The translations under genes were made by a program, and so were the position numbers. From positions 1 to 9,262 of the forward strand of contig JAUXFG010000154.1 in assembly GCA_030620115.1 (NCBI GenBank): a stretch of DNA of 9,262 nt, given 5' to 3'. Origin of the DNA: Candidatus Fermentibacterota bacterium. GTDB taxonomy: Bacteria; JAFGKV01. Of this stretch, positions 94 to 8,929 are shown in pieces (positions within the stretch are counted from its first letter, which is position 1; every line of letters starts with the position of its first letter). The notes below the pieces were generated by a model. It had not been told where the DNA came from. It made no database searches and was given only the letters and a program-made list of their open reading frames with translations.

Positions 94-244
94 ACTACCC
101 GGCCCGAAGGGGCGGCTCTTCTTCCGGACGAAGTCTCGGAAAAGGCAAGGATCTTCCGTAGTTTGTGCCGATGAGTCCTCCTGCGACACGGCGGTACAGA
201 ACCGATGCGGGAGAAGTACTCAATAATTACAGTTGGCCCTCAAG

Positions 245-250
245 AAGGAG
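245..250 (+). promoter_or_regulatory. Ribosome binding site that fixes a TTG start
   Basis: AAGGAG lies 8 bases before the TTG at 259. The only upstream in-frame ATG (205) has no SD-like sequence before it. This site, with the signal peptide that begins exactly at the TTG, decides the start of the first gene. Confidence 0.75.
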
Positions 251-258
251 AAAGCAGA

Positions 259-1362
259 TTGAAAAAATATAGTTTGCTGACGGCCGCACTGATCCTACTG
301 CTTGCGGTCACTGGCGTTGACGGCAAACCGAGGAAAAGAGGGAAGGAGCCGGAGTCCCCGAAGTACACGGTCGAGATCCAAAGCGGCTTGGCCACAACCT
401 ATGACGACAATGTCTTCAGACGCACCAAGGAGGAGCGCGACGAGTTCAAAACGGCGCCAAATACCGGGAAATGGGCGAATATCGAGACCCTCGACGATCT
501 CATCAATGCCGTCTGGGTACAGGCCACGTACTCCAAAGGCAATACTCGGGTTCGAGCCAAGGCCAAACAGTACAGCTACTGGCAAAACTGGGCCAAATCG
601 TTCCACCTCTATAGCCTGAACATTCGCGAGAAACTCGGGAAACGATTCTACGGTTATCTCGATTATCGGTACGTTCCACGTTACTACATCCGACAGATCT
701 ACTCCGAAGTTACCAGAGATCACGAGGCCTACGATTATGCAAAGCATCGTGTAGCCGTGGAATTCCGTAAGGATTTGCTCAGAAAAGGCGCCTTATCATT
801 GAGGACCCATGGTCGGTATGAACATGAGAACTACGATAAGAGCTTCGACGAGTACGACTTCGATGCGTTTGCCATTGAAGCGGAGGCATCGTACAAGCTA
901 AGCAAGGCTGTCAAGGTAGGTGTTGAAGGGCTCTTTCGAAGCGTAAACTGCGTCGGGTACATTGTACCGAATGACACTGCTGGAATCGTCGAGTTGCGCA
1001 GAGACTCGGATGCCTCCTATGATGAGAATACCCTTGAGTTGTACGCTGATTATCGATTACCAACGAAGCTGTTTGGCCGTACGCCGCGTTTGGGAGTAAG
1101 AGGAACGGTCGACAAGAAGGTATACGCCACCGATATCAGCATTTACGACGACCCGTATCATTCAGGACGGGAAGACCTTAAGTTTGCATTCCTTGCAGAT
1201 ATCAGGCTCTCCTTCCCATTTGGCATGGACCTCAAACTGGGTTACAAATGGCAAGAGAGGGAAGTGGATTCCTCGTCCACGGCCGATCTCGGAGAGGAAA
1301 AGGACTTCACGAGCAACGCCGTCAGCCTCGAGATCGCATTCAAGCATAGCCTTATAGGCTAA
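259..1362 (+). CDS. Outer-membrane beta-barrel protein (porin-2-like), TTG start
   Basis: This 367-residue protein is predicted to be exported and inserted in the outer membrane. From the TTG start it begins MKKYSLLTAALILLL, a typical signal peptide (Lys-Lys, hydrophobic core, cleavage probably near residue 22), followed by a basic linker (KPRKRGK). Residues 36-53 contain YDDNVF, a motif common at the first strand of the putative beta-barrel porin 2 (BBP2) group. The rest is rich in Tyr, Arg, Asp and Glu, with alternating hydrophobic/polar strands and charged turns, as in a transmembrane barrel. The last strand (AVSLEIAF) is followed by KHSLIG rather than ending in the aromatic residue usual for BAM substrates. 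It is the first gene of a four-gene operon, 19 bases before the lipoprotein gene. The barrel class is well supported; the transported or bound partner is unknown. A pore, an anchor or an export channel for the downstream secreted proteins are all possible, and the last is speculation. Confidence 0.75.
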   Translation: MKKYSLLTAALILLLAVTGVDGKPRKRGKEPESPKYTVEIQSGLATTYDDNVFRRTKEERDEFKTAPNTGKWANIETLDDLINAVWVQATYSKGNTRVRAKAKQYSYWQNWAKSFHLYSLNIREKLGKRFYGYLDYRYVPRYYIRQIYSEVTRDHEAYDYAKHRVAVEFRKDLLRKGALSLRTHGRYEHENYDKSFDEYDFDAFAIEAEASYKLSKAVKVGVEGLFRSVNCVGYIVPNDTAGIVELRRDSDASYDENTLELYADYRLPTKLFGRTPRLGVRGTVDKKVYATDISIYDDPYHSGREDLKFAFLADIRLSFPFGMDLKLGYKWQEREVDSSSTADLGEEKDFTSNAVSLEIAFKHSLIG

Positions 1363-1381: not shown

Positions 1382-2389
1382 ATGAAGAAGCTCTGCTTTC
1401 TTTTCGCCGTGGTATACCTTGTGGGATGTGCTGATCGTGATGGTCCCACGGAGCCTGGAGATGCATATCATCTCGTCGCCACAGTACCGACAACGGGCTA
1501 CGTCAACGACGTTATCGTCCATGATGGCTACGCGTATACTGCCACCGGTGAAGTAGGCTTGTCGATCATAACTGTCGCCGATCCTGGATCCGCAAGACTG
1601 ATCGCCCAGTACGATCTCCCGCAAGGTAACTCAAAAAGCATCGACCTGCTTGAAAGGGATGGTCGTCTCTACGCGTTCGTGGCTGCGGGATCGTATGTCG
1701 GACTGCAGATCATCGATGTCACGACGCCCGAATCGCCGTCGTTCGTATCAGTGATAATCGGAGAAGATCCAGAAGGTATCGACTACGTGGAGTCCTTCGA
1801 GGCGCTGGCATTGGTAGATACCATGGTTTACATCGCGGATCGTTCAGGCGGACTGGCTAGCTTCAATATCATGGACATGTCCATTCCTCCTCACTTCGAA
1901 CACCGTTTAAGAACCGGGGGCTACGCGCGTGGGGTCACGGTACGAGACAGCATCATCTATATGGCCGTGGGAGAAGGCGGGCTCGCAACGGTTCGTCACG
2001 ATCCCGAGAAGACTTCCGGTGTTCTCGAACTGCTCGATACCCATGACACACCCGACTATGCATATGACGTCAAGGTCTCGGAAGACCTGATTGCGTATGT
2101 TGCAGACGACGCGTACGGTGTTCGGGTGTTCGACGTAAACGACCCATGGAATATATTGGAGATCGGCTGGGCGAGAACGCCGGGCAATGCGAGACGGCTG
2201 TTCATCCATGGAAACCGGCTGCTTGTCGCTGACGGATCCGAGGGGTTGGCTGTTTTGGATATTTCCGATCCGACACGTCCGACAATGGTGGGTCAATACA
2301 TTGTGAAAGATGCCAAATCAGTATGGGCCGATAACGATTACATCTACCTCGGCACCGAGCATGACGGACTTCTAATAATCAATTGGTAG
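1382..2389 (+). CDS. LVIVD-repeat lipoprotein, seven-bladed beta-propeller
   Basis: The 335-residue product starts with a short lipoprotein signal peptide with lipobox LVGC, giving Cys16 as the predicted lipidated residue. A Gly/Pro/Glu linker follows. The remainder is a run of degenerate ~42-residue units of the pattern V-x-(V/L)-x-D/H-x-x-(A/L)-Y-x-A-x-(G)-x-x-G-L-x-(I/V)-(I/F)-D-(V/I)-x-D/T-P, the LVIVD repeat. I count seven, starting near residues 41, 85, 130, 181, 226, 269 and 311. The last unit stops at GLLIINW without its outer strand, while residues 29-39 before the first unit resemble that strand, so the ring probably closes by N/C-terminal pairing. LVIVD propellers are mostly extracytoplasmic and of unknown function; protein binding is the usual guess. 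Asp17 does not follow the Cys (the +2 residue is Ala), which in a proteobacterial-style Lol system would favour the outer membrane. The SD AAGGAGG at 1366-1372, 9 bases before the ATG, supports the start. Confidence 0.85.
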   Translation: MKKLCFLFAVVYLVGCADRDGPTEPGDAYHLVATVPTTGYVNDVIVHDGYAYTATGEVGLSIITVADPGSARLIAQYDLPQGNSKSIDLLERDGRLYAFVAAGSYVGLQIIDVTTPESPSFVSVIIGEDPEGIDYVESFEALALVDTMVYIADRSGGLASFNIMDMSIPPHFEHRLRTGGYARGVTVRDSIIYMAVGEGGLATVRHDPEKTSGVLELLDTHDTPDYAYDVKVSEDLIAYVADDAYGVRVFDVNDPWNILEIGWARTPGNARRLFIHGNRLLVADGSEGLAVLDISDPTRPTMVGQYIVKDAKSVWADNDYIYLGTEHDGLLIINW

Positions 2390-2400
2390 CGGCCATCATT

Positions 2401-2406
2401 AGGAGG
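2401..2406 (+). promoter_or_regulatory. Ribosome binding site of the FG-GAP gene
   Basis: A perfect AGGAGG sits 6 bases before the ATG at 2413. It decides against an upstream in-frame TTG at 2383 that overlaps the end of the previous gene and would add ten polar or basic residues before the signal peptide. Confidence 0.85.
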
Positions 2407-2412
2407 TACAAG

Positions 2413-4218
2413 ATGAAGTTAGGAACGTTGTCCCTGCTGTTTGTTTTTCTTATTCCACTTACTGTTGCCGCGTGGGAAAACGATCAGCACCTCTGGTCGG
2501 CGCCATGGTCGTGGACCGGGCCTATGGATGAGGCTAAATTGGGACTATCCGTGGCTTCCGGAGGAGACCTGAATGGCGATGGCATCGACGATTTGGTGTT
2601 CTGCGCTCCCTTCGACGCCACGAGCGGAACCGAACTCGGCGCCGTTTTCGTGGTCTTCGGCTCGGCCTCCGGCTTCCAGCCGGAACTCGATATCAGTTCC
2701 TCTGCAGGGGCGAGCTACAGAGGAGAAGCATTAGGTGATCACCCCGGAGGTTCGACTGAAGGAGGAGCCGCCGGAGTCGCTATCGTTCCAAGCATGAACG
2801 GTGACATCTACGATGATATTGTGATTGCGTCTCCCGACAACGACGAGACGGGTCTCGATGCGGGCAAGGTCTACATAATCTTCGGCAAGGCCTCCGGGTG
2901 GCCTCTGGATGACCCCCTCTCCAACGCCGACGCATCATTTGTCGGAGAGGCGGCGAACGACAAGGTTGGCACAGTTGTGGCGTCTGCAGGAGACGTGAAC
3001 GGCGATGGTAAGGGTGACCTATTGATCGGGGCCCCGTTTGCGGACAGCGGCAAGGTCTATCTGATCCTCGGCAAGGATACCGGATGGGGAACATCTGTTT
3101 CGCTCTCCAACGCCGACGCTTCCTTCATTGGGGAGGACGATCAGTTCAACCTGACCCGCGCAGGTTTTTCTGTTTCCGGAGTTCCGAGTCTGAACGGCGA
3201 CAGCTACGATGAAATCCTCATCGGAGCCCCGAAGTTCACTCCCGATTTCGACCACATGTTCTTGGGCAAAGCCTATCTGATCTTGGGCAAGACCACGGGC
3301 TGGACCAACAATGACACTCTTTTCAACGCCGACGTTTCTTTCATTGGCTCTGCGGCAGGGGATGAAATCGGAACAGGGGTATCTTCCGCCGGTGATACCG
3401 ACAATGACGGCAAGGGTGATCTATTGATCTCATCTCCCGTGGGAACAGGCAATGTCTACCTCTTTCTCGGGAGCGATCTCACAATACCAGGTACCGGCAT
3501 CACAATGAGTTCCGCTCAGACCCACATTGTTGGGGCCGACAACTCCCTTGGCAACGCCATGGCTGTTTTGGGTAGCGCGAACAATGACGACTATGACGAC
3601 TTCGTCATTGGCGCTCCATTCTACGACGCCGGCCCAGGCAAGGCCTATGCGGTGTTTGGCAGATCAACTTGGCCTGCCGACCTTCAGATAGAAGACTGTG
3701 AAGGAGGTTGGAAGGGGACTTCGGGCAAATTCTGGGCTGGCGGTAGTGTTGCCGGAGGCGATGTAAACAACGATGGACTCGCCGATCTGGTACTCGGGGC
3801 CGGCGCCGATCCTACAGGCGGTTACGACGCCGGTGGTGCTTACGTGATTCAAAGCAATTACGGAGCTGATACTACACCTCCTGCGAGAACCACCGACCTT
3901 AATGCGGAATACGATGTGTCCGGTCGGGCCACGCTGGAGTGGAGCCAGGTCACGCTTGACGAGAACGGCATTCCCGAGGACGTGCTGTTCTACCGCGTGC
4001 TACGCTACAAACATAGGTTCACCGACACGCCCCGGACCTTTGTCAAACACCTCCCGGCAGTTATCGACCCGGTGACGACGATCCAAGACACGGCCCACGT
4101 TATCGGTGATATCGACTATCATTACTACTATCGTCTCTTCACAGTAGATGACTCGGGTAATGTCTCAGAACTCTCCACCGGGACCGGAGAGTTCGATTTC
4201 CTAACCCATATCCAATGA
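2413..4218 (+). CDS. Secreted FG-GAP (integrin-alpha-like) propeller with Fn3-like tail
   Basis: The 601-residue protein starts with a clear signal peptide (MKLGTLSLLFVFLIPLTVAA, cleaved near residue 20). Seven FG-GAP repeats follow, each with a calcium-loop position and an IGAP/FCAP-type strand. The loops begin at residues 52, 127, 194, 259, 328, 388 and 450, about 60-75 residues apart, so the domain should form a complete seven-bladed propeller. Blades 1, 3, 5 and 7 carry canonical loops such as DVNGDGKGD. Blades 2, 4 and 6 have Ser instead of the first Asp and Asp-x-Tyr instead of Asp-Gly. Residues ~491-595 (TTPPARTTDLNA onwards, with YHYYYRLFTVDDSGNVS) look like a fibronectin type III domain. 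No lipobox, LPXTG or FlgD-like tail is visible, so its retention at the surface would depend on a partner. FG-GAP propellers of this kind act in adhesion or ligand binding in known families; the ligand here is unknown. It sits 23 bases after the lipoprotein gene and 11 before the C25 gene. Confidence 0.87.
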   Translation: MKLGTLSLLFVFLIPLTVAAWENDQHLWSAPWSWTGPMDEAKLGLSVASGGDLNGDGIDDLVFCAPFDATSGTELGAVFVVFGSASGFQPELDISSSAGASYRGEALGDHPGGSTEGGAAGVAIVPSMNGDIYDDIVIASPDNDETGLDAGKVYIIFGKASGWPLDDPLSNADASFVGEAANDKVGTVVASAGDVNGDGKGDLLIGAPFADSGKVYLILGKDTGWGTSVSLSNADASFIGEDDQFNLTRAGFSVSGVPSLNGDSYDEILIGAPKFTPDFDHMFLGKAYLILGKTTGWTNNDTLFNADVSFIGSAAGDEIGTGVSSAGDTDNDGKGDLLISSPVGTGNVYLFLGSDLTIPGTGITMSSAQTHIVGADNSLGNAMAVLGSANNDDYDDFVIGAPFYDAGPGKAYAVFGRSTWPADLQIEDCEGGWKGTSGKFWAGGSVAGGDVNNDGLADLVLGAGADPTGGYDAGGAYVIQSNYGADTTPPARTTDLNAEYDVSGRATLEWSQVTLDENGIPEDVLFYRVLRYKHRFTDTPRTFVKHLPAVIDPVTTIQDTAHVIGDIDYHYYYRLFTVDDSGNVSELSTGTGEFDFLTHIQ

Positions 4219-4229: not shown

Positions 4230-7200
4230 ATGAGATACTTCCTTGTAGTATTCCTCCTATTGGGTGTTCAGGTCGCTGTCGGTGCGCCGATCGCAGATGC
4301 GGACATCGATGTTCTGAACTCATCAGCTGACGGGCTTCAGGCACGGATCACCTTTCCTGCTGATCCCGGGCAACGTGTCCCGTTGGGCTTCATGATCGTA
4401 CCTGAGAGCGCATCGCTGAACGCACATGCTTCTCTTGACGGGCAAGAATCGACCGGTACGCCAATTAGCGTGGAGATTGGTGATCCTGCCTTCATTCGTG
4501 AGGTCAGGGTCGTAACGGTTGCTCTCATCTCGCCTGATGCGGTTGAACGTGGCACTGTGCTCACTGTCGATGTCGAGCTAAGCCTCAGCTCAGTGCCGAC
4601 AGGTCCGATTTTTAAGGGATATCTGCCACCTTCATTCGTGGAGATACTACGTTCCTCAGCCCTCAATTGGGATCAAGTGGAGGTGGAGGAACGAAGCCCC
4701 GCTCCTCGCTACCTGGTGATTACCCCCGACGAGATGTCAGGCACAGTAGCACCCCTGTTCGACTGGAAAGAACGCAAAGGGCTCGGGCCTGAGCTCGTCA
4801 CGCTGAACGAAATCGGCAGCAACGATCCCTCCGACATCCGTGTGTACATTCAAGACAGATACAACACGACAGGTACGCTTGAGTATGTGCTGCTGATTGG
4901 TGATCATGAGCTGTTGCCCGCGTTCATGGGGTACTACAACCCGGTGGACGGGGGTAATCTCCCTTCAGACAAGTACTACGCTTTTGTGGCGGGAGGAGAC
5001 AACCTGCCCGATGTGCATGTGGGCAGACTCCCGGCCGGCTCTCCTGGCGATCTTACGGCGATGATAGACAAGGTGCTCGCCTACGAGCGCGGAGATGAGG
5101 CCGATATTTGGATGCACAGGGCCGTAATGGCCTCAGGCAACCAGCACCCTTCGCAGAAGGGAACGAAAAGGACTATCCGGAATCAACTGCTGGGCTTTGG
5201 ATACGATCTTGTCGATACGGTCTTTGCGCCGGATCAAGGCGCCGTTGATCTCATCAATGCAGTCACCGAAGGAAGAAGCATCGTGAACTTCCGCGGTGGC
5301 CTTGCAACAAGACAGGAGTGGGCCGCCATTGGCTTCGACACCGATGATTGCAACTATCTCGGCAACGGGCTGAAGCGACCGCTCGTATTCGGTATCATCT
5401 GCATGACGGGAGATTTCACCTGGGATGGCGGAGACTGCCTTGGCGAAGCATGGATGAAGGTTGCCGGTGGCGCCATTGGCTTTTTCGGCGCTTCGCAACA
5501 GTCCCACACGTTCGTCAACAACACGTTGGACTTGGGCCTCTTCGACGCGATTGTAAACCAGGGCATCAGGCCCATAGGTGCTATCACTGATGCGGGTCTC
5601 TACTACATGTACTACAACTATGCGTGGAGCGACACCGTGCTTATCCAACTTCAGCAGTACAACCTGTTGGGGGACCCGGAAACGCCTCTTTGGGTCGGTG
5701 AACCCGGAACCATGACCGTAGATCATCCGGGGTCCGTTCCTCAGGGTACGTCAGACGTCGTGGTCAGTACGGGAGTTGGAGGAGCACTGGTCTGTCTGCG
5801 AGGCGCAGGCGTGTATGAAGCAGTGTACGCCGACGGCTCCGGCAATGCATATTTCCAGATCACTCCCACATCGTCAGGCCAGATCGATGTCACGGTCACT
5901 GGCTACAACATGATTCCGTATCAGGGCCAGATGTCCGTGACGCAAACCTACGCCATCGCGGGCAATGTCTATTCTGAAGATGGACCGGCCTTGGAAGGCG
6001 TCACGATGACGCTTTCCGGCGACGCCTCCGATCAGGCAACGACCAATGTAGACGGGTGGTATCGATTCAATGATCTGAACCAAGGGGGCACGTACACGGT
6101 CACGCCTTCATATTCGAACTCCATAGGCGCATGGACGTTCGATCCCGAAAGCAGAACATACGAGAATCTGCAGGGTGATCAGTGGTCACAGAACTACACC
6201 GCCAATGTGCCCAGATACACGTTGGCAGGAAGCGCTCGCACCTCTGGAGGCGCCGCGCTGGGAGGGGTCACGGTAACCTTGTCTGGCGCCTCCAGCGATG
6301 AGACCACCACCAATCAGGATGGCTGGTACCAGTTCGGCAATCTCCGTGGCGGTCTGTCCTACACGCTCACCCCGTCATATACACCCCAGGAGGGCGCCTG
6401 GAGCTTCGATCCGGAAGACCGGAGCATCGGATTCCTGGATGAGGATCGTTGGGATCAGGATTTTTCCGGAACGCCGCCATTCTACGGCATCACGGGTACG
6501 GTGACTGCGGAGACGGGCGAGGCAGTCGAGAGCGTCAAGATTGTCCTGTCCGGCGATGGAGCCGATACGACCCACTCGAATGTGCAGGGTCAGTTCTCGT
6601 TAGGCCCGTTGGCCGGCGGCGCGAGCTATACGGTCACATCCTATTACACACCGGTTGAGGGCGCATGGAGCTTCGATCCGTCGTCCTACGACTTCTCCCC
6701 ACTCACTGGTCCGGAAACCGCCAATTTCCAGGGGACGAGACCACGGTATTCGCTATCGGGAGTCGTCACGACGCGGGATGGCCAGGGCCTTGAGGGGGTT
6801 CTGGTCAGGCTTTCCGACGGCAAGGTTGACTCATCACTCACCGACCAAGAAGGGGCCTATAGCCTCGAAAATCTTCCCGGTGGCTTTTCGTATGCAGTGA
6901 CGCCCTATCTCGCATACGATGACTCGGTGAACTGGGGATTCACCCCTGAGGTTGTATCTATCGATACCCTGGTAGGATCGCTGGACAATGTCGGCTTCCT
7001 TGCGCAGCTGCCCGTCTTGCTCTACGTGGGTGATGGCTTTGGACAGCCGGGCTCTTCAGGGAACCCGGTGGATCTGTCGGTGGATAATGCGACTTACCAG
7101 ACTGTTTCGCTGGACTCAGTAACCTTCACGCTGCTCTACTCATCGGCATTCGGCTACCATATTCCTTCGGAGAGCGGTGTCATCACTGTGGGAAGGGCAG

Positions 7201-7754
7201 AAGATATGACTGTTTCCTATACGGTGGATGAGACGAATGAGGCCGCATGCTCGCTTTTTGTGACACTCTCCGGCCCTGGGGCGCTGGAGTCCGGCAGCGA
7301 TCCCGTGCTTCGTCTCCTTTTTGATGTCGACGCAGAGGCAGACACCTCGCGAGCAACAGTGCTCTCATTCGTCACGGCTTCTGTTTGGGACACTACAGGT
7401 GTGCTCATACCAGTCGACAGCCATGACACAGGCGTCTTCGGATCGGGTGTGAGTTCAGCGCCCTCTCCCCAAGAGTATAGGCTCAACTTCTCACCGCCTG
7501 TGCCGAATCCCACCACAGGAGAGGTCCAGTTCTTGTTCCAGCTCCCACGGACCGCACGGACCACTGTAGTGATCCGTGATCTCAATGGCCGTGTGGTCAC
7601 GAAACTCCGCCAGGGGATTCTGTCTCCAGGCGAGCATTCCGTTCGATGGGACGGCAAGACCGAATCAGGAAACATGCTCCCCAACGGCGCATATCACTGC
7701 CAACTGGTGGCTGGTGGCGAAACTGCCCATCGTTTGGTGGTTTTCCTGAGATAG
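4230..7754 (+). CDS. Gingipain-like (peptidase C25) multidomain surface protein, probable pseudo-protease
   Basis: The 1174-residue product has a signal peptide (MRYFLVVFLLLGVQVAVGA), then a prodomain-like beta-rich region (~21-155), then a peptidase C25 domain (~160-490). C25 hallmarks are LLIGDHELLP (221-230), DVHVGRLPAGSPGD (261-274), the Cys motif CMTGDF (Cys391), CLGEAW (403-408) and FFGASQQSHT (418-427). In active members the catalytic His sits in a GHG motif about 33 residues before the Cys; here that stretch reads NFRGGL (353-358), with Gly357 at the His position, so proteolysis is doubtful. An Ig-like region follows (~495-570), then four tandem carboxypeptidase-regulatory-like domains starting at Tyr574, 663, 752 and 840, a beta-rich, possibly cohesin-like domain (~929-1070), and a FlgD-like C-terminal domain (~1082-1174: VPNPTTGEV, DLNGRVV, RWDGKTESG). 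Such tails often act like the secretion/anchoring domains of type IX substrates, but no type IX machinery gene is in the window. It is the last gene of the operon, before a strong terminator. C25 assignment is firm; the substrate or binding role is unknown. Confidence 0.85.
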   Translation: MRYFLVVFLLLGVQVAVGAPIADADIDVLNSSADGLQARITFPADPGQRVPLGFMIVPESASLNAHASLDGQESTGTPISVEIGDPAFIREVRVVTVALISPDAVERGTVLTVDVELSLSSVPTGPIFKGYLPPSFVEILRSSALNWDQVEVEERSPAPRYLVITPDEMSGTVAPLFDWKERKGLGPELVTLNEIGSNDPSDIRVYIQDRYNTTGTLEYVLLIGDHELLPAFMGYYNPVDGGNLPSDKYYAFVAGGDNLPDVHVGRLPAGSPGDLTAMIDKVLAYERGDEADIWMHRAVMASGNQHPSQKGTKRTIRNQLLGFGYDLVDTVFAPDQGAVDLINAVTEGRSIVNFRGGLATRQEWAAIGFDTDDCNYLGNGLKRPLVFGIICMTGDFTWDGGDCLGEAWMKVAGGAIGFFGASQQSHTFVNNTLDLGLFDAIVNQGIRPIGAITDAGLYYMYYNYAWSDTVLIQLQQYNLLGDPETPLWVGEPGTMTVDHPGSVPQGTSDVVVSTGVGGALVCLRGAGVYEAVYADGSGNAYFQITPTSSGQIDVTVTGYNMIPYQGQMSVTQTYAIAGNVYSEDGPALEGVTMTLSGDASDQATTNVDGWYRFNDLNQGGTYTVTPSYSNSIGAWTFDPESRTYENLQGDQWSQNYTANVPRYTLAGSARTSGGAALGGVTVTLSGASSDETTTNQDGWYQFGNLRGGLSYTLTPSYTPQEGAWSFDPEDRSIGFLDEDRWDQDFSGTPPFYGITGTVTAETGEAVESVKIVLSGDGADTTHSNVQGQFSLGPLAGGASYTVTSYYTPVEGAWSFDPSSYDFSPLTGPETANFQGTRPRYSLSGVVTTRDGQGLEGVLVRLSDGKVDSSLTDQEGAYSLENLPGGFSYAVTPYLAYDDSVNWGFTPEVVSIDTLVGSLDNVGFLAQLPVLLYVGDGFGQPGSSGNPVDLSVDNATYQTVSLDSVTFTLLYSSAFGYHIPSESGVITVGRAEDMTVSYTVDETNEAACSLFVTLSGPGALESGSDPVLRLLFDVDAEADTSRATVLSFVTASVWDTTGVLIPVDSHDTGVFGSGVSSAPSPQEYRLNFSPPVPNPTTGEVQFLFQLPRTARTTVVIRDLNGRVVTKLRQGILSPGEHSVRWDGKTESGNMLPNGAYHCQLVAGGETAHRLVVFLR
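5949..7010 (+). repeat. Four tandem ~89-residue domain repeats within the C25-like gene
   Basis: Units begin at about 5949, 6216, 6483 and 6747 (residues 574, 663, 752, 840). Each has Tyr-x-(I/L)-x-G at the start, GV-x-(V/M)-x-LS in the middle, a T/S-N-x-x-G-x-(Y/F) turn, and G-G-x-x-Y-x-(V/L)-T. Units 1-3 then share GAW(T/S)FDP, and unit 4 has NWGFTP at the matching place. Spacing between the WxF motifs is 89, 89 and 90 residues. The fold class is carboxypeptidase-regulatory/transthyretin-like, usually a stalk or binding module. Confidence 0.75.
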
Positions 7755-7834: not shown

Positions 7835-8929
7835 TCATTGCGGTGACTCCCCCAATCTCACCAGGAATTCCCAGATCCACGCCCCATCTTCTGTTCCCTG
7901 ACAGATGCCGGGATACAGACCAAAGAGCGCAATCCCCAATACCGCAAGCAGGCATACCGCCCAGGCAGTGCCCTCAAGGCTTGCTTCCCTCAGCTGGGCT
8001 CGCACAGGACGGAGGAATACAGGCGCCACGAGAAGCGCAAGCACAAAGACTACAAAACCCGCAGGGCTCGAACCCAGCATTGAGGAAAGAGCCACCCACC
8101 GGTAGGCAAATCCCACCAAACCAGGCAGCGCCAATAGCGAGGCTACCGGTACGAGCCCGATTCCACGCACCATGAAGCCTCCCTGGCGCTCTTTGCGAGG
8201 AGCAGTCAGAATCACCAGACAGATCACTGGAAGCAGGGCGGCCCAGAGTGCAAGAGGTAGATAATGGGTGCCGAGCCATCGCGCTCCCAAAACAAAGACC
8301 ATCATCAGCTGGAGCTCGAAGAACCACAGCAGCGACAATGGTGCTCGCCGGCCGGCCTCAGATGCTGCCAAACCGGCCGCCCATAAAACCCCCACGCCGG
8401 GCAAGAAGATGAGCAATGGGGCCCAGGCGTCGAAGCTGACCGGATAAATGCGTGGGAGCGTCCATCCCAGCAAGGAAAGCGCCAAAGCTCCTCTGGCGAC
8501 CCTCCTCCCCCATCCCTCGGAACCGATGAGCCACGAGCCCGTAGCCGGCCACACACCTGCGACCAGGAACGTCCCTGCCACCGAAAGGAGCATCAAGGGC
8601 AGGGAATCATGACGTACTGTCCGCACGAAGAGGAAAGCGCCAAGAAGCATCCCCCATCCCACACATGCCTCGTCAGATCGAGCTTCCTCTTCCTTCCATC
8701 CGATCAACAGGAGCCCCAACAGGCCCAGTTGTGCTTCCGGTGCATCGACAAGAATCGCCGCCATCGCCATCACCACACGAGCGCTGTCCCATATGTGGCG
8801 GCCCCAAAGAAAAAGAAATCCAGCAAAAAAACCCATTGGCGCCACCATGGGGGCACGCTCCACCAGGGCCAATCCTGCGGCGAGGAGCCCAATCCCCACC
8901 AAGCTCCTCATCAACGAAACATCCCTCAC
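7835..8929 (-). CDS. Polytopic inner-membrane protein, faintly NuoN/MrpD-like
   Basis: The 364-residue product is almost wholly hydrophobic, with roughly 11-13 potential membrane helices. The C-terminal half has a feel of the NuoL/M/N-MrpD antiporter-like family: VASLLALPGLVGFAYRW (compare the family's loop before the Gly-Phe-x-x-Lys helix), a run AGRRAPLSLLWFFELQLMM where family members have a Lys-Arg/Ser-rich helix, and GIALFGLYPG near the end (NuoN-like LGLYP). The conserved Lys of the GFxxK helix is Arg, and the protein is shorter than the usual ~450-500 residues, so any proton-pumping role is uncertain. Start choice: GTG at 8929 has no clear SD, while an in-frame ATG at 8911 is preceded by GAGGGA about 10 bases upstream; the shorter form is as likely. 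It converges on the operon and has no visible partner gene, although more could lie to the left of its end only in the plus operon. An unrelated membrane protein is a real alternative. Confidence 0.7.
   Translation of the reverse strand: MRDVSLMRSLVGIGLLAAGLALVERAPMVAPMGFFAGFLFLWGRHIWDSARVVMAMAAILVDAPEAQLGLLGLLLIGWKEEEARSDEACVGWGMLLGAFLFVRTVRHDSLPLMLLSVAGTFLVAGVWPATGSWLIGSEGWGRRVARGALALSLLGWTLPRIYPVSFDAWAPLLIFLPGVGVLWAAGLAASEAGRRAPLSLLWFFELQLMMVFVLGARWLGTHYLPLALWAALLPVICLVILTAPRKERQGGFMVRGIGLVPVASLLALPGLVGFAYRWVALSSMLGSSPAGFVVFVLALLVAPVFLRPVRAQLREASLEGTAWAVCLLAVLGIALFGLYPGICQGTEDGAWIWEFLVRLGESPQ

Follow-up and report, generated by a model that had tools for sequence, protein, structure and literature searches.

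A gingipain-like C25 domain that keeps the catalytic-position cysteine, lacks the histidine and has a changed S1 pocket

The window analysed here (9,262 nucleotides from a Candidatus Fermentibacterota bacterium, contig JAUXFG010000154.1) codes for a large secreted protein with a peptidase family C25 domain, in which the cysteine at the catalytic position is retained, the catalytic histidine is replaced by glycine and, as judged from alignments and conservation, the S1 pocket around the retained cysteine is changed in a coordinated way. The domain belongs to a large and apparently undescribed group with an N-Y-R-G motif, referred to here as R-type; a search of the open-access literature found no description of this group, nor of LVIVD proteins together with C25. 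We hypothesize, while regarding the matter as evenly poised, that the gene product belongs to the T9SS-type surface proteins and that its retooled R-type C25 domain serves as a cysteine-centred binding or covalent-capture domain and works with an outer-membrane barrel. C25 gingipain-like peptidases are usually read as Arg-specific proteases, and many genes labelled 'gingipain-like protease' may have another role.

Features of the window (all coordinates refer to the whole stretch)
Feature	Coordinates	Strand	Basis
Predicted 14-strand outer-membrane beta-barrel, candidate partner, first gene of the window	205..1362	+	AF2 model, co-occurrence
LVIVD-repeat lipoprotein, lipobox LVGC	1382..2389	+	PF08309 E 1e-23; adjoins R-type C25 in other families
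FG-GAP repeat (beta-propeller) protein	2383..4218	+	PF01839 E 7e-36; same place in orthologous locus L050
Secreted R-type C25 protein, 1174 aa	4230..7754	+	ORF, domains, start and codons
Peptidase_C25 domain	4710..5690	+	PF01364, full length
NFRGG motif (Asn353-Gly357) in place of gingipain R N-Y-T-G-H	5286..5300	+	Single-sequence and profile alignment
Arg355, R-type hallmark, aligned with RgpB Thr209 at S1 base	5292..5294	+	Alignments, conservation
Cys391, catalytic-position cysteine, retained	5400..5402	+	Conserved in 177/177 sampled and 81/81 complement domains
His426-Thr-x-x-Asn430-Asn431, R-type (T)HTxxNN lid motif, at RgpB Trp284 region	5505..5522	+	Alignments, conservation
Peptidase_C25_C Ig-like domain	5703..5927	+	PF03785 E 1e-7
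FlgD_ig C-terminal domain, likely type IX sorting tail	7512..7712	+	PF13860

The protein consists of a signal peptide, an N-terminal domain, the C25 domain, a C25_C Ig domain, four CarboxypepD_reg repeats and a FlgD_ig tail. Its start is the first Met at 4230, closely preceded by an AGGAG-like site; starting instead at the in-frame ATG at 4215 would lengthen it by five residues. By sequence and fold, the protein is a member of peptidase family C25. PF01364 is matched in full (positions 1-374, E 1.9e-60, 205.6-208.9 bits, cut-off 23), the best solved relatives of the domain are RgpB/gingipain R (E about 4e-31), and the AF2 model of the domain, with pLDDT mostly >94 and a poorly modelled Ig part, superposes on RgpB (4ief/1cvr; Z 48.3, rmsd 1.4-1.7 across 321-325 residues) as well as on Kgp (Z 44). 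Because of this close superposition, the gingipain fold is predicted to be intact. With gingipain R (RgpB) and gingipain K, the window protein shares this fold (Z 48 and 44), the C25-then-Ig-like order, the catalytic-position cysteine and a type IX-like tail. The N-terminal domain has no match in the PDB or Pfam, and Pfam gives no Propeptide_C25 match in this N-terminus, which is shorter; half of the 12 R-type proteins scanned elsewhere (6/12) carry this domain. Export by a type IX system is likely, judging from tails and components: the genome has 69 FlgD_ig tails, the best-scoring copy being that of the window protein, a partial SprA_N match and six PorV-family proteins over cut-off. Por_Secre_tail scores the window protein at 19.8 bits, under its cut-off of 23, and Por_Secre_tail or FlgD_ig tails are found on 7 of the 12 R-type proteins scanned elsewhere, two of them below cut-off.

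When aligned with gingipain R, NFRGGLATRQEW of the window lies opposite NYTGHGSETAW of RgpB and CMTGDF opposite CVNGDF, which places Cys391 on Cys244; one extra residue in the window lengthens the His-Cys spacing from 33 to 34. The register is unchanged in a profile built from 68 sequences, with YRG(W) over YTGH. The earlier note had put Gly357 (codon 5298-5300) at the histidine site, 34 residues before the cysteine of a retained Cys motif, and both the codon positions and the RgpB alignment bear this out. The match to the Pfam Peptidase_C25 model is full-length, and neither the single-sequence alignment with RgpB nor the profile alignment finds a histidine at the catalytic position, in the aligned stretch of the window about 33 residues before the cysteine, where GHG is expected. 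Hence, at the level of sequence, the active C25 His-Cys dyad is absent from this domain. Compared with RgpB and gingipain K, the histidine is missing, Thr209 is replaced by Arg, the Asp163 anchor is lost and the Trp284 lid is replaced; since histidine, anchor and lid are all missing, the domain has neither the dyad nor the Arg/Lys pocket. A sequencing error, which close homologues with GHG would have exposed according to the earlier note, is excluded because an orthologue from another Fermentibacteria MAG (L021/L050), whose domain shows 57% identity, has NYRGG and an intact cysteine motif (CLTGDF) and dozens of relatives carry the same change. The probability of a sequencing or assembly error at this one codon is hence negligible.

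The survey of homologues proposed in the earlier note revealed how large the R-type group is. All C25 domains of six genomes were gathered with the Pfam model, which avoids the bias of using the variant as query. This complement set (n=81, after removal of a 106-residue fragment and without an N-terminal fragment from G003) comprises 45 domains with histidine, 33 of the N-Y-R-G type and three others, and the cysteine is present in all 81. The catalytic histidine is thus missing from 36/81 domains, 33 of which have an arginine two residues earlier. The genome of the window alone has 19 C25 domains, five of the N-Y-R-G kind and one with GRG. In a wider set of 177 domains, 89 have the histidine and 88 do not; the arginine occurs in 87/88 of the latter versus 5/89 of the former, and the cysteine in 177/177. 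The sampled R-type members come from 29 genomes in 20 bacterial families. In estuary sediments, C25 'gingipain-like peptidases' have been reported to account for >40% of the peptidases predicted to be exported (PMC6752024). Such counts could overstate proteolysis, as more than two fifths of the complement domains are without the histidine and the R-type ones are also without the Arg-binding pocket.

The S1 pocket of RgpB has Thr209 and Val242 at its base, Trp284 as its lid and Asp163 as its charge anchor (PMC9559808). Arg355 of the window is aligned with Thr209. An acid in the Asp163 region is found in 41% of His-type domains at the best position, compared with 2-6% of R-type domains, and the alignment shows none at the Asp163 position of the window domain. 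Neither the acidic S1 anchor nor the Trp lid of gingipain R/K is found in this domain, the lid position being occupied by His or another residue in the group. At this position, whose alignment to Trp284 is uncertain by one residue (MAFFT moves the motif by one), His occurs in 51/87 R-type and 0/88 His-type domains; in the other 36 R-type domains the residue is K, R, N, Q, S, Y or another. Conservation was ranked per column over 330 columns, weighted for similarity, in R-type and His-type domains. The Cys391 column ranks first in both types, while the old histidine column falls from rank 2 in the His-type to 126 in the R-type. The Arg355 column rises from 199 to 3, a somewhat circular rank, as the R-type set is partly defined by this arginine; the 33/36 counted without that bias provides a check that does not depend on the definition. 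Asn430, Asn431 and the following Gly move from ranks 118, 261 and 279 in the His-type to 18, 31 and 39 in the R-type. The loss of the histidine together with the rebuilt S1 pocket argues against a standard His-Cys protease, and the invariant cysteine, the newly conserved Arg355 and the rebuilt pocket argue against simple decay.

These data bear on two alternatives. The domain could be an inert pseudo-protease scaffold, a structural or protein-binding module that has lost catalysis and in which the cysteine is a structural relic. The missing dyad, the setting of the domain among several others, including repeats and an Ig tail, in a surface protein, and the frequency of pseudo-forms in clan CD (PMC6426788) would fit this; however, the cysteine is the most conserved R-type position, and Arg355 and the lid residues are newly conserved. 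The pseudo-orthocaspases (clan CD, C14) provide a comparison, being widespread in bacteria with an incomplete His-Cys dyad and including a Gln-Cys type that keeps the cysteine. They mostly lose the cysteine and keep the acidic S1 pocket, whereas R-type domains do the reverse, with an invariant cysteine and a changed pocket (PMC6426788). We therefore consider an inert scaffold unlikely, and the term pseudo-protease used in the earlier note applies only in the sense that the His-Cys dyad is missing, not in that of mere decay or an inert scaffold. Alternatively, the domain could be an active cysteine protease in which the lid His426 as a relocated base, or no base at all, supports hydrolysis. The presence of the lid His in more than half of the R-type and none of the His-type domains, the invariance of the cysteine and the substrate-assisted activation computed for RgpB (PMC10882967) speak for this, but the lid His is missing from over two fifths of R-type members, and His426 sits in the lid loop on a different pocket wall from the classical histidine, which makes such a protease decidedly improbable. 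His426 was rejected as a general replacement base because of these missing members, although it may still act as one in this protein, and His226 (within GDH) because it is unconserved in the R-type. Of the earlier suggestion of a subfamily with another base, the subfamily stands, and is large, while neither histidine qualifies as its general base. The residue of most interest is instead Arg355, two residues ahead of Gly357, on which the earlier note is silent.

The R-type C25 gene of the window is the last in a string of four, following the genes for the barrel, the LVIVD lipoprotein and the FG-GAP protein, the true start of which is probably an ATG near 2413. The same order is found in L050, with identities of 42, 51, 54 and 53% for barrel, LVIVD, FG-GAP and C25 proteins, respectively. 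The AF2 model of the barrel (mean pLDDT 71.6) has 14 long strands and matches CymA and OmpG at Z 24 and 22, with matches of this kind spanning Z 24-20. The predicted fold is like that of these monomeric 14-strand porins, but identity is only 10-12% and there is no common family. A profile search matched the barrel in 28 of 386 genomes, with one per genome among the matches listed. It is present in 27/29 sampled R-type genomes, and R-type domains are present in 27/28 barrel genomes (386 genomes, Fisher 4e-38); in the two R-type genomes without a barrel, the sampled R-type domains are of the divergent NYRGEG kind only. G196 is the sole barrel genome without a sampled R-type C25; its R-type gene may have been missed or lost. 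Shared descent was controlled for with an RpoB tree covering 66 genomes, across which the two traits are distributed patchily (11 and 9 changes). Among 11 independent contrasts, the traits go together in nine, are opposed in none and tie in two (sign test p 0.004); the strongly supported branches alone give about 4:0 for co-occurrence, which is not significant by itself.

Adjacency is less frequent, the barrel gene adjoining an R-type gene in only about 7/27 genomes. Barrel, LVIVD and R-type C25 genes are direct neighbours in L251 and L252, which represent two further families, an LVIVD gene adjoins an R-type C25 gene in L250, and by coordinates the barrel gene adjoins R-type genes in G209, G071 and G212. 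A gene for a surface LVIVD-repeat lipoprotein is often found beside R-type genes; taken alone, this link is weak, since such genes abound in these genomes and one of them sits next to a His-type C25 gene. Several R-type genes per genome versus a single barrel would suit a shared receptor, anchor or channel, and the barrel, as a candidate partner, offers a concrete handle on R-type function. Further gene arrangements were observed in and beyond the window. In the genome of the window, an FG-GAP gene follows another R-type C25 gene on the opposite strand (L238:6132-7928), and the minus strand of the window at 7835-8929 holds an ORF for a very hydrophobic 364-aa membrane protein without a Pfam or NCBIfam match. 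At G003:C1:143104-188476 and L242/L251, four R-type C25 genes lie within 45 kb, two in tandem, and one is preceded by LVIVD and barrel genes.

Simulations of RgpB have indicated that the substrate itself deprotonates the cysteine, the histidine being sterically unable to do so, and that the histidine helps water in deacylation (PMC10882967). If this also applies here, Cys391 may still be acylated without the histidine, while hydrolytic release would be poor without its assistance. Since Arg replaces Thr at the base of the S1 pocket and the acid is gone, the pocket should prefer an anion, and may take an acidic side chain or carboxylate beside the cysteine. On these premises, we propose that the domain would capture a ligand tightly or covalently, or transfer the acyl group, instead of carrying out ordinary proteolysis, and that it would do so on the surface of the cell in concert with the barrel and the LVIVD lipoprotein. 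A bolder version, put forward tentatively and rather against our expectation, is that R-type C25 domains form a distinct class of His-free Cys-Arg enzymes or covalent-capture proteins with a charge-inverted S1 pocket, acting as the surface part of a conserved machine to which a dedicated 14-strand barrel would contribute the outer-membrane component and an LVIVD propeller the lipoprotein. If functional, the Cys-Arg pocket would be a rare pseudo-dyad that keeps the nucleophile and swaps base and specificity pocket.

Acyl transfer also features in a further alternative, a sortase-like transpeptidase analogous to PorU, in which the acyl-enzyme would be passed to an amine and the barrel would play for it the role that PorV plays for PorU. 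PorU, the type IX sortase, shares the C25 fold and the cysteine with the window domain and has likewise gained an arginine absent from gingipains, Arg722 (PMC4560394); sortases use Cys and Arg, and the 14-strand barrel co-occurs as a candidate partner. However, PorU retains the His-Cys pair and its Arg722 lies 32 residues after the cysteine (PMC4560394), whereas the window domain has no such histidine and its arginine precedes the cysteine. Unlike a sortase, R-type genes occur several per genome with tails like those of secretion substrates, and the NCBIfam PorU model NF033707 gives 69.3 bits against an equivalog cut-off of 420. A transpeptidase of this kind is thus decidedly improbable.

In a tree of C25 domains from which the trait columns had been left out, one clade (support 98) unites 63 R-type rows with a single row that has both Arg and His, and the other R-type lineages, including that of the window, lie near this main clade on weakly supported branches. 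Holding all R-type domains as one clade in a thinned set is not rejected (p-AU 0.22), and the R-type may have arisen once or a few times. Several domains combine the arginine with the histidine (L005, L042, L023, L105 and L126; NHRDHG, NYRGHG, TFRGHG and AYRGHE) and are possibly intermediates or reversions between both types; in L105 (G276:C121:5738-6814) a single TAG interrupts the C25 frame, which may reflect a pseudogene, an error or recoding. The orthologous C25 domains L011 (G000:C7:36508-37545) and L228 (G001:C327:11323-12354), both from Fermentibacteria genomes, read GRG, with the arginine exactly at the catalytic histidine site and the cysteine kept. In the C25 tree, L011 belongs to the opposite half, the PorU-like one, and therefore represents a second, independent His-to-Arg change. 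Finally, L232 (G003:C87:67617-68750) has GTG in place of GHG (NGFGTGARW) and keeps the cysteine without the arginine.
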